Origin: a virus
DNA length: 28,588 nucleotides
Virus record (IMG/VR): IMGVR_UViG_3300005264_000047
Span: 1 to 28,588 of that record
Direction: 5' to 3' (one strand)
The notes below the pieces were generated by a model. It saw nothing but the letters and a program-made list of their open reading frames with translations. It was not told the origin of the DNA and made no database searches. This document shows positions 182 to 28,588 of this stretch, piece by piece (position 1 is the stretch's first letter; each line of letters opens with the position of its first letter). A program made the translations under genes and the position numbers.

Positions 182-242
182 TAAAATTATAATTTAATAT
201 AAATAAGAATAAGAAATAACATCCATGGTTATTTCTCCTTAG

Positions 243-284
243 AAAAAAAGTGACCTTTTTCCATAATTTTAGGTCACTTTTTTT
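243..284. terminator. Bidirectional intrinsic terminator before the packaging genes
   Basis: A perfect 14-bp inverted repeat (AAAAAAAGTGACCT at 243-256 and its complement at 271-284) surrounds a 14-nt loop. On each strand the stem is followed by a run of U, so it can stop transcription from either side. It insulates terS from the promoter and iterons at 1-181. A rightward transcript starting near base 29 would end here as an RNA of roughly 250 nt unless terminator read-through occurs. A further 9-bp hairpin (212-220 with 228-236) lies just upstream, and a long polypyrimidine tract (about 278-330) lies downstream. Confidence 0.8.
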
Positions 285-330
285 TTCTTTTTTTTTCTTT
301 TCTTCTATTTTTTTTTCTTTTCTTTTATTT

Positions 331-24724: not shown

Positions 24725-25423
24725 TTAATCAAGAAAATTTTTAATCATATTTTTTGTATTAGTCTTATTATCTTGCCAATCGTCTTGCCATATTTCTAAT
24801 AAGTCAATACCTTTAATTATACATAAATCTCTTTTTAATTTATCTCTTACTCTAGTTCGTTTCTCTTTATGATAATATCCTTGTATTTCTATAGCCTTAT
24901 TCATCGATCCAATAAATATATCAAGTTCTAGTGACCTATTGGTTTCTGGATTTTTTATTTGTGATATATCATTATATGACATTAACTCTTTATCAAAAAT
25001 AGATTCAATCCAATTTCTTACTTCAACTTCAAATACACTATCTTTACCTTGCTCTTTCATAAAACAATGTGCACATCGTCTACCTCTTAACCAATTAGCT
25101 ACTGATATAGTAAACTCATTCTTACATTGTAAACAATAACACAACATTATCTTATGTGAATTAATATATTCTTTCTCAAGTAATATTACATCTTCTTTAA
25201 AAAATAGTTCTTTTATATCATTAAATTCTTTCTTGTAATTACCTATACATCTTGGACAATCAAATCCAGAATTTATATTATTCCAATTCCGATTAACTAT
25301 ATGATCACCTTTCCTACAATATAATTTCATATTAATCTTTGAATTAATATAATCATCACTTAATAAATCATAACCATGTTTATCTAATTTCTCTATCATC
25401 TCTTCTCTATTATACTTTCTCAT
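24725..25423 (-). CDS. Zinc-ribbon, PD-(D/E)XK-like homing-type endonuclease, probable
   Basis: A 232-aa protein. The N-terminal half has zinc-binding cysteines: C36 with C56/C59 (CPRC), and C97/C100 with C117/C120 (CAHC), with WNNINSGF and SVANWLRGRR typical of repeated DNA-reading zinc modules. The C-terminal half looks like a Vsr/PD-(D/E)XK nuclease: E134 in FEVEVRNW, D168 in LELDIFI, E179-x-Q181 in KAIEIQGYYH, and KRDLCIIKGIDLLEIWQDDW. Proteins with this layout are usually free-standing mobile endonucleases in phage genomes. A GGGGA site precedes ATG. The lysine of the core motif is replaced by Q181. Confidence 0.7.
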   Translation of the reverse strand: MRKYNREEMIEKLDKHGYDLLSDDYINSKINMKLYCRKGDHIVNRNWNNINSGFDCPRCIGNYKKEFNDIKELFFKEDVILLEKEYINSHKIMLCYCLQCKNEFTISVANWLRGRRCAHCFMKEQGKDSVFEVEVRNWIESIFDKELMSYNDISQIKNPETNRSLELDIFIGSMNKAIEIQGYYHKEKRTRVRDKLKRDLCIIKGIDLLEIWQDDWQDNKTNTKNMIKNFLD

Positions 25424-25451
25424 ATCAACATATCCCCAAATTCCATAATTT

Positions 25452-25835
25452 TTAATATATCTTATCCATTATTAAATTAATATGATAATTATAAATATCA
25501 ATATATCTCCCATTATCCCATAATTCAACAAAAGGCTGTAACACTATATACTTCCCATCTTTTACACTACCAAAAATATATACCATGTTTTTACTCTTTA
25601 ACTCTTTAAAACCTTTATAAAAATCCATACCTATAACTCTATCTAAATAACTCTTCTTATACTTCATTATTACTTCATCAGTCTCTATAATATGACCTAC
25701 TATTAATAATAATATCTTTATCGATGATCTATATAACTTTAAATCTTTAATCATATTATATAATATCATCGGAATAGGATAATCTTCACTCATTATTATA
25801 TTATCTAAAATATTTAATTCTACAAATTTGTTCAT
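25452..25835 (-). CDS. Winged-helix protein, RepL-like
   Basis: A 127-aa protein. Helices at ~20-60 (YRSSIKILLLIVGHIIE) lead to a recognition-helix-like segment FYKGFKELKSKNMVYIFG and a wing (KDGKYIVLQPFVELWDNG). This helix-turn-helix plus 'Y.lqP...w..G' ending resembles the RepL plasmid replication initiators of low-GC bacteria. It starts one base after the previous stop with no strong ribosome site, so translation is probably coupled. It could be the replication initiator or a regulator. Confidence 0.5.
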   Translation of the reverse strand: MNKFVELNILDNIIMSEDYPIPMILYNMIKDLKLYRSSIKILLLIVGHIIETDEVIMKYKKSYLDRVIGMDFYKGFKELKSKNMVYIFGSVKDGKYIVLQPFVELWDNGRYIDIYNYHINLIMDKIY

Positions 25836-25836
25836 T

Positions 25837-26103
25837 TTAATAATTTATATCTGACGAAAACTTTATTTCAAGAATATCACCTACATTTATTTTGAAATCT
25901 TCATTAAATATCTTCTTCATTATTTCTTCTTCTTCACTATTATATAAAGATGCCCTCTTTAATTTGAAATCAGACCTGGATTTAAAAGAACAATATACAT
26001 CACTTTTAATATTTCTAGGTACAACATTATCAATATACGTTATATTATCAATCTTTATCATATCATTTATTAATACATAACTCCCAATCTTTTTGTTTAT
26101 CAT
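25837..26103 (-). CDS. Unknown 88-aa protein in the replication operon
   Basis: Begins in an ATGA overlap with the 192-aa gene and ends one base before the next ATG, so it is an integral part of the operon. The sequence is basic in the middle (RSDFKLKRASLYN), then acidic (SEEEEIMKK), and ends with an INVGDILEIKFSS strand. It is probably a small alpha/beta protein. No motif gives a function. Location between two winged-helix proteins suggests a replication or control accessory. Confidence 0.55.
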   Translation of the reverse strand: MINKKIGSYVLINDMIKIDNITYIDNVVPRNIKSDVYCSFKSRSDFKLKRASLYNSEEEEIMKKIFNEDFKINVGDILEIKFSSDINY

Positions 26104-26678
26104 ATCTTTATACCTCTATTATAATGTAAATTCATTAATTCTAAAAAATTAATCATACCACTATTATCAATCTTATCCTCTTTAATCTTATCTAACGTTA
26201 CTTTAATAATGTCTAATATTATATTTTTCAATATGTCTCCATCTTCTAATCGAAATACCCTTTTATACATTGAAATTATGTTCTTGGCATTCCCTATAAA
26301 TCGATCCCTATAATACCCTTCTAATCGAAATACTTTTAATCGATAACTAGACTCTTCAATCTCTTTCTCTATATCTTTTAATATTCCTTTCTCTATCATC
26401 CAATGAGTACAAGGCTGCATATATAAATCTCTACCATCTTTCTCTATTATCTGTAAATCTACCAATCTCTTCTTATATGATATACTGGTTGACTTAGATA
26501 TATCACTAAAATTCGCAAGATATTTTAACGTATATCTATAAATAAATGTATCACTATCTTTATCAAAAATACTCATATTATACATATTATGTATGAACTT
26601 ACCTAAATTCCTATTAAAAAAACCAATCTCTATTAAATAATTTATACCAATTCGCATATCTTCTATATCTTCTACCAT
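26100..26678 (-). CDS. Winged-helix protein, replication operon
   Basis: A 192-aa protein with AAGGGAGA nine bases before ATG. The winged helix spans roughly 42-110: RYTLKYLANFSDIS, then SISYKKRLVDLQIIEKDGRDLYMQP. The same 'Y.QP' ending is seen in the 127-aa protein two genes downstream. The C-terminal ~80 residues form a separate helical part (SYRLKVFRLEGYYRD and an isoleucine-rich helix) that could mediate dimerisation. Likely DNA-binding, either initiator or regulator. Confidence 0.5.
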   Translation of the reverse strand: MVEDIEDMRIGINYLIEIGFFNRNLGKFIHNMYNMSIFDKDSDTFIYRYTLKYLANFSDISKSTSISYKKRLVDLQIIEKDGRDLYMQPCTHWMIEKGILKDIEKEIEESSYRLKVFRLEGYYRDRFIGNAKNIISMYKRVFRLEDGDILKNIILDIIKVTLDKIKEDKIDNSGMINFLELMNLHYNRGIKI

Positions 26679-26696
26679 AATTATATCTCCCTTAAT

Positions 26697-27317
26697 TTAC
26701 ATCAATCTCATATTCTTCAATTTTTTATAACTCTTTAACTTTATTATGTCTTCTTGCGTTCGTTTGATATCTCTCTCTTTAGAATCTATTATATTATTCT
26801 CTATCTTATATTTCTTTATCAACTCTTTATTAAAATTTCTCTTTCTCTTCTCTACAGTAAATTGATACTCTTTCTCCTCTCCTAATATCATCCATTTCTT
26901 ATCCATTATACCATCAGATATATACTTGTTATTTAATTTTCTCGCAACTATCAAAGGTAATACCCAATCCTCTATATCATTTAATACTAATTTATATGAT
27001 ATGTTCTTAACTAATTTGTTATATCCTGACCTCTTGTTTATCATCTCTTCATCTCTTCCACATACTTTCTCTTTCCTTAATACCTTCATCTCTATCATTT
27101 TATTAAGACTTCTATAATACGACTTTCTTGGATAATTATACTCCTTTATAAATTGTGTCGGCATATACGATATCTGATAAGAATGCCACTTCTTAAAATG
27201 AAATATTATATTAATAAAAAATTCCTTCTCACTTAACGTAAAATTAGAATGATTCTTAACATCCATATATAACTGAGAAATCTTACTATATCCAAATGTG
27301 TGATAATTATTATCCAT
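26697..27317 (-). CDS. Winged-helix replication-initiator-like protein
   Basis: A 206-aa basic protein opening the rep operon after the RHH gene's terminator. Residues ~28-85 form a winged helix: FTLSEKEFFINIIFHFKKWH, then YNYPRKSYYRSLNKMIEMKV and LRKEKVCGRDEEMI. The C-terminal ~60 residues are very lysine/arginine-rich coiled coil. The size, basic tail and position next to iteron-like sites suit a plasmid-type initiator, but no Rep catalytic (HUH) motif is present. A GAAGGT site precedes ATG. It is the best candidate for binding the control-region repeats. Confidence 0.5.
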   Translation of the reverse strand: MDNNYHTFGYSKISQLYMDVKNHSNFTLSEKEFFINIIFHFKKWHSYQISYMPTQFIKEYNYPRKSYYRSLNKMIEMKVLRKEKVCGRDEEMINKRSGYNKLVKNISYKLVLNDIEDWVLPLIVARKLNNKYISDGIMDKKWMILGEEKEYQFTVEKRKRNFNKELIKKYKIENNIIDSKERDIKRTQEDIIKLKSYKKLKNMRLM

Positions 27318-27367
27318 ATTCTACCTTCTCTTTACTACTAAATAAGTGTGGGTGTGGTAATATTCAA

Positions 27368-27391
27368 AAGGCAGTATTCACGTACTGCCTT
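27368..27391 (-). terminator. Intrinsic terminator after the RHH gene
   Basis: A perfect 9-bp stem (AAGGCAGTA at 27368-27376 with its complement at 27383-27391) and 6-nt loop. Read on the minus strand, TTTTGAATATT follows. It lies six bases after the RHH stop, so most transcripts starting upstream should end here. The rep genes would then need read-through or their own promoter in the 50 bp before 27317. Confidence 0.8.
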
Positions 27392-27396
27392 ATCTT

Positions 27397-27573
27397 TTAC
27401 TCAATCTTGTAATTATTAATCCATTGAAGAATTATAAACCTTATTAAGCCAGATATCGTCGAACCTTCTATCTTACATATATCTTCAATACGCTTAACAT
27501 CTTCCTTTAAAAACATTACTCCAATTACCTTACCATTATCACATAACTTCTTTTTACCTTTAAATTTGTTCAT
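27397..27573 (-). CDS. Ribbon-helix-helix (CopG/Arc-type) DNA-binding protein
   Basis: A 58-aa protein. GKVIGVMFLKEDVKRIEDI supplies the beta strand and first helix, and EGSTISGLIRFIILQWINN the turn and second helix, which is the complete RHH fold. Such proteins bind tandem operators as dimers and typically repress replication genes or their own promoter. ATG 27573 has AGAGGA at the right distance. An in-frame ATG at 27582 would abut the ribosome site. It lies 150 bp downstream, in its transcription direction, of five palindromic sites that could be its operators. Confidence 0.8.
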   Translation of the reverse strand: MNKFKGKKKLCDNGKVIGVMFLKEDVKRIEDICKIEGSTISGLIRFIILQWINNYKIE

Positions 27574-27723
27574 ATCATACATCCTCTTTAAATTGTTTTA
27601 CTAAAAATCCTCTTCTTCAATTCTATTTAGCATATTTTTTAATTTTTTTGTTTTTATTTTGTTTTTATTTTATAAGTCCAATTACATATAAAAATTACAC
27701 CTAAATTAAATCACTCAAAAAAA

Positions 27724-27842
27724 TGTCAGGGTGACGCACTTTTCCAGAATCTGCGTCATGGTGACATTTTTCTAGTGTCAGGGTGACGCACTCAAAAATA
27801 AAACTGCGTCATGGTGACACAAAAAAATGTCAGGGTGACGCA
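27724..27842. repeat. Five alternating palindromic sites / possible attenuator
   Basis: TGTCAGGGTGACGCA occurs at 27724, 27776 and 27828 (exactly 52 bp apart). The opposite-orientation relative TGCGTCATGGTGACA occurs at 27752 and 27805. Each site has an 11-bp GTCA-N3-TGAC palindrome at its core. As DNA they look like operators or iterons. As minus-strand RNA, neighbouring sites can pair. The last pair (27752 with 27724) makes a 7+5-bp stem followed by seven U's, a terminator shape in the leader of the RHH/rep operon. Confidence 0.85.
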
Positions 27843-27994
27843 CTCACTATAATATATCTTTAATGATTTCACAAACTTCCAGACAATGAATAATACTATA
27901 ACTAAACTTATTTCTTTTTTAACTATATCTCAAAACTAAACTTAATTAACAATACTGGAACCAAGTTAAATTTAAAAAAAATTAAACCAAGTAA

Positions 27995-28290
27995 AAAATT
28001 AAACCATGTGATATAAATTAAAATACCTTACTGGTGCAAAAATTTACTATTAAATTTTCACTTATATACATTTTGTATACTACACTATCAATTCTAAATA
28101 CTTTAAATCTAATCTAATCATGTGATATAAATCTAATCTAATCATGTAAAATTAAACCATGTGATATAAATTAAAATACCTTACTGGTGCAAAAATTTAC
28201 TATTAAATTTTCACTTATATACATTTTGTATACTACACTATCAATTCTAAATTAAACTACTTTAAATCTAATCTAATCATGTGATATAAA
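27995..28290. repeat. Tandem copies B1 and B2 of a ~135-bp element
   Basis: B1 (27995-28131) and B2 (28148-28290) are identical for 105 bp (27995-28099 and 28148-28252), then stay similar after a short insertion in B2. Each holds a CATGTGATATAAA motif on both sides (28005, 28119, 28158, 28278), an AAAATTT/AAATTTT inverted repeat (28039-28045 and 28052-28058 in B1), and TATAC-N5-GTATA (28065-28079 in B1). A third, shorter copy is at 28492-28588. Confidence 0.93.
28063..28091 (-). promoter_or_regulatory. Leftward promoter in element B1 (also in B2 and B3)
   Basis: On the minus strand TTGATA (28086-28091) and TATATA (28063-28068) are 17 bp apart, a good sigma70-like spacing. The palindrome TATAC-N5-GTATA lies between the boxes, and a second inverted repeat covers the expected start point, as in repressible promoters. 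It faces the RHH and rep genes. The same sequence recurs at 28216-28244 and 28539-28567. Confidence 0.55.
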
Positions 28291-28307
28291 ATTTATTTTT
28301 TTTTTAG

Positions 28308-28336
28308 TTGACTTTTGCTATATTATTTGTTATAAT
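28308..28336 (+). promoter_or_regulatory. Near-consensus rightward sigma70 promoter
   Basis: TTGACT (28308-28313), a 17-bp spacer, and perfect TATAAT (28331-28336). It points right, into the AGGGCC iterons (28369 onward), so the repeats lie in the initially transcribed region. The -10 box and spacer are repeated at 1-22. This is the strongest promoter match in the window. Confidence 0.75.
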
Positions 28337-28492
28337 AAGGGCCATTAAACGCGGAAGATAATATATTAACTAGGGCCATTATTACTAGGGCCCTTTATTA
28401 CTAGGGCCCTTTATTACTAGAGATGCCATATAGAAGAATATAAAAATATAAGAATATAAGAAGAATATAAAAAAGATTATATTTTAAATGAA
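28315..28492. repeat. Right copy of terminal repeat 'C' with iterons
   Basis: Corresponds base for base to the window start at an offset of 28314 for the first part, with small changes (GCGGAAG here, GCGAAAG there). It carries ACTAGGGCC at 28369, 28384 and 28400 and the degenerate ACTAGAG at 28416. It then continues to the same GATGCCATATAGAAG segment as the left copy. Two fewer iterons than the left copy, plus substitutions, show that these are two diverged copies and not simply one assembly overlap. Confidence 0.9.
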
Positions 28493-28588
28493 ATTAAAAT
28501 ACCTTACTGGTGCAAAAATTTACTATTAAATTTTCACTTATATACATTTTGTATACTACACTATCAATTCTAAATTAAATTACTTTAA
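28492..28588. repeat. Third, terminal copy B3 of the leftward-promoter element
   Basis: Matches B1 from ATTAAAATACC onward (offset about 476) and follows B2 in its last bases (ATTAAATTACTTTAA against ATTAAACTACTTTAA). The window ends inside it. In B2 the equivalent sequence runs on for about 50 bp to the C repeat, so if the molecule is circular, B3 should join the C copy at base 1 in the same way. Confidence 0.88.

Follow-up and report, generated by a model that had tools for sequence, protein, structure and literature searches.

CopG auto-represses copG-repB (PMC5717011), and ORF56 of plasmid pRN1 has been proposed to bind its own promoter (PMC3869888). PrpA, an antitoxin of the ribbon-helix-helix (RHH) type, binds iterons located beside an 89% AT element and limits the replication of pMBL6842 (PMC7848731). 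In pIP501, the repR leader brings together a DNA-binding repressor and a terminator, whereby attenuation is induced by an antisense RNA (PMC4981023).

The locus described here belongs to a phage and lies towards one end of the virus record IMGVR_UViG_3300005264_000047, whose 28,588 nucleotides were analyzed as a single stretch, hereafter the window. Its arrangement is reminiscent of the CopG-RepB system of pMV158, in that dyad sites lie upstream of a gene block that begins with a small RHH-like gene and continues with a candidate replication gene. In pMV158 there is one operator, which overlaps the promoter, whereas the present locus has five spaced sites over 119 bp and a hairpin between the two genes, and no homology to CopG or RepB has been demonstrated. 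A second likeness is to the ORF56-ORF904 pair of pRN1, since the RHH protein matches ORF56 best, if weakly, in both sequence and fold; pRN1, however, is a plasmid of archaea, and the likeness is that of the RHH protein, none having been shown for its partner. With pMBL6842 the locus shares an AT-rich region combined with repeats, where in the case of PrpA an RHH protein acts; the iterons of that plasmid are nevertheless short GTGTAG/TTTGTA repeats, and no toxin gene was identified here. Finally, the repR leader of pIP501 is a precedent for the model put forward in an earlier, sequence-only reading of this DNA, in which a repressor and a terminator in the leader of a rep gene would act in combination. 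The antisense RNA of pIP501 sets the two apart, as no antisense (plus-strand) promoter above chance was found across 27583-27960, and antisense-RNA attenuation was dropped from consideration for this reason. By analogy with CopG, ORF56 and PrpA, the array of sites would most likely control the leftward genes or an origin.

The five-site array

The sequence TGTCANNNTGACGCA is present in five exact copies (0 mismatches) of alternating orientation at 27724-27842 (119 bp), and no further exact one turns up elsewhere in the phage record of 28,588 bases. Sites 1 (27724-27738, dyad centre 27730), 3 (27776-27790, dyad centre 27782) and 5 (27828-27842, dyad centre 27834) read TGTCAGGGTGACGCA on the plus strand, while sites 2 (27752-27766, dyad centre 27760) and 4 (27805-27819, dyad centre 27813) read TGTCACCATGACGCA on the minus strand. 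The starts of sites 1, 3 and 5 follow a period of exactly 52 bp, and a distance of 53 bp separates site 2 from site 4; the placement of the five sites and the exact 52-bp period, both given by the sequence-only reading, are thus confirmed. When up to two mismatches are allowed, six matches to TGTCANNNTGACGCA are obtained against 1.17 expected, a number reached by none of 100 shuffles. The clustering of the five sites is not due to chance.

Each site is a dyad, and the plus strand reads GTCAKGGTGAC in all five. This 11-bp core, with its asymmetric (G/T)GG centre, is in the same orientation throughout the array, and what alternates is the outer extension only: sites 1, 3 and 5 have CGCA on their right, and sites 2 and 4 have TGCG on their left. 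The core dyad GTCANNNTGAC occurs five times in the window compared to 0.17 expected, all within the array. The dyad centres are spaced by 30, 22, 31 and 21 bp, corresponding to about 2.9, 2.1, 3.0 and 2.0 helical turns, and the five dyads are therefore located on one face of the helix. Their phase coherence amounts to R = 0.95-0.96 at 10.4-10.5 bp per turn, with P of about 0.0015 (0.15%) for four free spacings and 0.016 (1.6%) on the assumption that the second pair arose by duplication of the first; the result depends on the dyad as the point of reference, the centres of the 15-mers being less phased (R 0.68).

The sites and the DNA between them differ in their constraint. All 15 positions of the sites, including the central triplet, are invariant within each orientation class, whereas the paired spacers are no more alike than shuffled ones, of which 33% and 97%, respectively, score as well. 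The spacers measure 13 and 9, then 14 and 8 bases, such that the one-base changes compensate one another and the sites stay near phase. Should the array have arisen through duplication of a 52-bp unit, all similarity between its spacers has since disappeared.

On this evidence, the five sites probably represent a DNA-level binding array, namely a clustered operator, possibly serving also as replication-origin iterons, for the phage's own repressor or initiator. Each site is a pseudo-palindrome, GTCA-KGG-TGAC, with a one-sided CGCA extension that alternates between neighbors. A small protein acting as a homodimer, for which the adjacent RHH protein is the most likely candidate, may bind the five same-face dyads cooperatively and would thereby exert an autoregulatory repression of the leftward genes and/or compete at an origin with the phage initiator. 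The binding protein, the repression and any role at an origin are what we infer.

Folding of the minus-strand RNA

The sequence-only reading had seen in the five sites a possible RNA attenuator, along with equally good DNA operators. In the form of the attenuator considered here, the sites would lie in the leader RNA of the leftward operon and form mutually exclusive hairpins, with 2:1 (and 5:4) as terminators and 3:2 and 4:3 as antiterminators. The pairings 5:4, 4:3, 3:2 and 2:1 are indeed all possible in the minus-strand RNA, each folding at about -13 to -21 kcal/mol, and the 2:1 hairpin has the stem of 7+5 bp that had been described, around a 3x3 internal loop and followed by UUUUUUU. A U-rich tail, GUUUUAUUUUU, likewise comes after the 5:4 hairpin and also after site 4 alone; it would be the first terminator to be encountered in transcription. 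A plus-strand terminator role for 1:2 was considered and dropped, as its tail consists of T5 only.

The minus strand folds at -53 kcal/mol, far more stably than its shuffles (z -6.1), and this is owing to the sites themselves: when the 15-mers are kept and only the spacers shuffled, the RNA is equally or more stable in 14% of the cases, such that the spacers contribute nothing significant to the folding, a point against an attenuator. An array with all five sites turned one way still reaches -45.1 kcal/mol, because each site is a dyad. Moreover, every possible pair of sites contains an identical 3x3 central mismatch, CCC versus CCA. With 300 random sets of centres, 96-98% of the minus-strand RNAs fold more stably than the native one and 0-1.3% less stably, and fully complementary centres yield -80.6 kcal/mol compared to -52.0 for the native RNA; at its centre triplets, the minus-strand RNA therefore comes close to the minimum of pairing. 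In the same test on the plus strand, the native centres are ordinary. The result for the centre triplets speaks against selection for attenuation. A further point against the attenuator is that the remaining terminator-like hairpins inspected in the phage have perfect stems of 9-16 bp.

A further objection concerns the U-tracts. The U7 behind 2:1 corresponds to the A7 in front of site 1 on the plus strand, and the same tract is found in front of site 5, where it can form only a loop; the tract belongs to the repeat copy. Stretches with 6 T in 8 begin at 6.7% of the positions of this AT-rich noncoding DNA. The best candidate minus-strand promoter, TTGTGA-17-TATAGT at 27846-27874, implies a start at about 27839, inside site 5, and is equaled by 44% of shuffles; since its score is at chance, it shows the sites neither to lie in a leader nor to be placed as operators. 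Only one promoter of the noncoding region clearly exceeds chance, the very strong plus-strand TTGACT-17-TATAAT at 28308-28336, which scores above all 200 shuffles. It reads towards the end of the window, whose first bases repeat that region from just past the -35 box.

The predicted ensemble shifts with the start of the RNA, a point in favor of an attenuator: a start at about 27839 gives 4:3 plus mostly 2:1, while the full RNA, starting at 27842, prefers 5:2 enclosing 4:3 and leaves site 1 free. The latter fold departs from the cascade between neighboring sites that had been proposed. This fold, the second U-rich tail, the constant orientation of the dyad cores and the common central mismatch were all overlooked in the sequence-only reading. 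The locus has no match in Rfam (nor among tRNAs), no sensor was seen, and the one relative found is without such sites; the helical phasing, furthermore, would be left unexplained by an attenuator. In view of the pairing energies and the two tails on the one side, and of these observations on the other, we regard attenuation as unlikely, and the fact that the RNA can form hairpins is best read as a by-product of inverted dyad sites.

Both functions could be combined, with DNA operators bound by a repressor and, in addition, RNA attenuation. Nothing in the sequence forbids this combination, as hairpins and candidate U-tracts exist, yet it is subject to the same objections as the attenuator, and no feature requires an RNA role. 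It is thus somewhat less likely still; the operator half of the combined control proposed earlier is supported by the phasing, the constraint on the sites compared to the free spacers and their loss together with the neighboring genes in the relative, and the attenuator half is not. A more elaborate version, in which the same elements would act twice, as phased DNA operators for the RHH repressor and, after transcription, as a hairpin relay of five arms, its fold being set by the start (27839 versus 27842) or by operator occupancy, appears to us very unlikely.

A resemblance by chance to a REP-like or other mobile hairpin element was also considered. A scan of 84,980 genomes uncovered three loci in the Cytophagales with two facing TGTCANNNTGACGCA arms, and IMG/VR contained no facing-site pattern. 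Each of the Cytophagales loci is a single hairpin whose centres are complementary, TGTCAGGC...GCCTGACA and TGTCATGC...GCATGACA, on unrelated chromosomes, as opposed to the mismatched five-site array of the phage, and a REP-like repeat, being highly improbable, was dropped. These three hairpins, which are perfect, with TGTCANNCTGACGCA arms and a REP-like look, lie in chromosomes of Hymenobacter and Spirosoma (L009 6975-7014, L010 4953-5002 and L011 1011-1053).

Neighboring genes

The gene adjoining the array, at 27397-27582 on the minus strand, codes for a 61-residue CopG/ORF56-like protein, and its probable start, read from the sequence, is the third ATG, at 27573, 9 nt after AGAGG. The protein matches phrog_876, a transcriptional repressor, in PHROGs (E 4e-4), while no match was obtained in Pfam or NCBIfam. 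Its best sequence match in the PDB is ORF56 of pRN1 (E 0.79, weak), and ORF56 and CopG rank at the top of the Foldseek matches, all of them weak (E at least 0.48) and obtained with a low-confidence model, AlphaFold without an alignment having given a pLDDT of 61. No relatives of this protein were found in the plasmids or phages searched. Its assignment as ribbon-helix-helix-like is therefore a weak one.

The next gene, at 26697-27317 on the minus strand, codes for a 206-residue protein, for which no family was matched and no relative found in IMG/VR, plasmids or phages, and for which the AlphaFold model without an alignment was unusable. The protein is a candidate initiator or regulator by inference only. 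The name rep, applied to this gene in the sequence-only reading, is unproven and amounts to a guess from position, as no family is matched and a perfect hairpin at 27368-27391, terminator-like on the plus strand, separates the two genes.

Another strong and perfect hairpin (z about -6) is located upstream of the putative small terminase gene, both in the window (241-287) and in the relative (L006 7073-7118). Its loop, CCATAATTTTA, is conserved in the two phages, and its stem is changed yet complementary (GTGACC/GGTCAC versus GGTGACT/AGTCACC). This hairpin may be a terminator or an antitermination point before the late genes.

A possible origin of replication

The sites may alternatively be iterons of a replication origin, bound by the phage initiator, perhaps the 206-residue protein, with the RHH gene being incidental. 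The position of the array is intergenic, no polymerase, helicase or initiator gene was recognized among the early phage proteins examined, and tandem repeats of another kind occupy the corresponding place in the relative. The identical repeats are clustered beside an AT-rich stretch at 27628-27717, with 15.6% G+C (11.7% in 27640-27699) as opposed to 45% in the array, which could serve for DNA unwinding. Iterons are usually direct repeats; here, the 11-bp core is direct and helically phased, but the outer CGCA extension alternates. The 206-residue protein is without a recognized homologue, and no exact TTATNCACA DnaA box is present near the array, only copies with one mismatch. The origin role is guesswork for want of a full-consensus DnaA box, although not every iteron origin needs one. 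In addition, the nearby 16-bp GGGCCC repeats are a competing candidate, and the arrays at 28364-28420 and 27995-28575 could equally be the origin. We consider the iteron explanation possible but doubtful; it is a sub-case of the DNA-level binding array, with which its probability overlaps.

Repeats of other types are found in the window. Tandem repeats of 16 bp, of the type TTTATTACTAGGGCCC, occur near both ends of the record (56-140 and 28364-28420) and are a candidate for another iteron array or for an assembly overlap of a circular genome. The noncoding DNA at 27995-28575 contains three copies of a 105-nt AT-rich repeat, the second and third being 100% and 89% identical to the first.

The related contig

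Searches of IMG/VR with the terminase, capsid, portal, p192 and p127 proteins all returned one contig, IMGVR_UViG_3300005264_000218, which was compared over 20,924 of its 22,287 bases. A search of genomes with the capsid gave no match, and the DNA at 25400-28588 showed no similarity to phages. The relative and the window have in common the late genes, the HNH endonuclease, p192 and p127, in the same order across the end of the window, an order that points to a map which is circular or circularly permuted. The terminase region of the relative (L006 10001-13560) looks rearranged, with a shortened terminase, several methyltransferase-like genes and a second terminase fragment.

The relative shares the genes that flank the locus on both sides, while the RHH gene, the 206-residue gene and any copy of GTCANNNTGAC are all absent. 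The corresponding place is occupied by a 132-residue gene without similarity, by 24-bp tandem repeats, GGACCTAATTTCTGGCCAGGACCC, at L006 6543-6626, and by ATCATATGAT dyads spaced at about 50 bp. The sites and the two genes are thus gained or lost jointly, which is what one expects if a cognate protein reads the sites, although this is one comparison and a single event. Conservation of the hairpin arms, which the sequence-only reading had proposed as a check, is not seen in this sole relative, from which the sites are missing along with the two genes.

Conclusions

The present work describes a probable operator or iteron array for a phage lineage to which the searched collections of phages and plasmids contained no close relative. 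It also provides a sequence-based way to separate operator arrays from RNA switches, by means of the phasing of the dyads, the centre triplets that do not pair and the U-tracts that accompany the repeat. Binding of the RHH protein here, if real, would extend CopG-like control to a phage with very few recognized replication genes.
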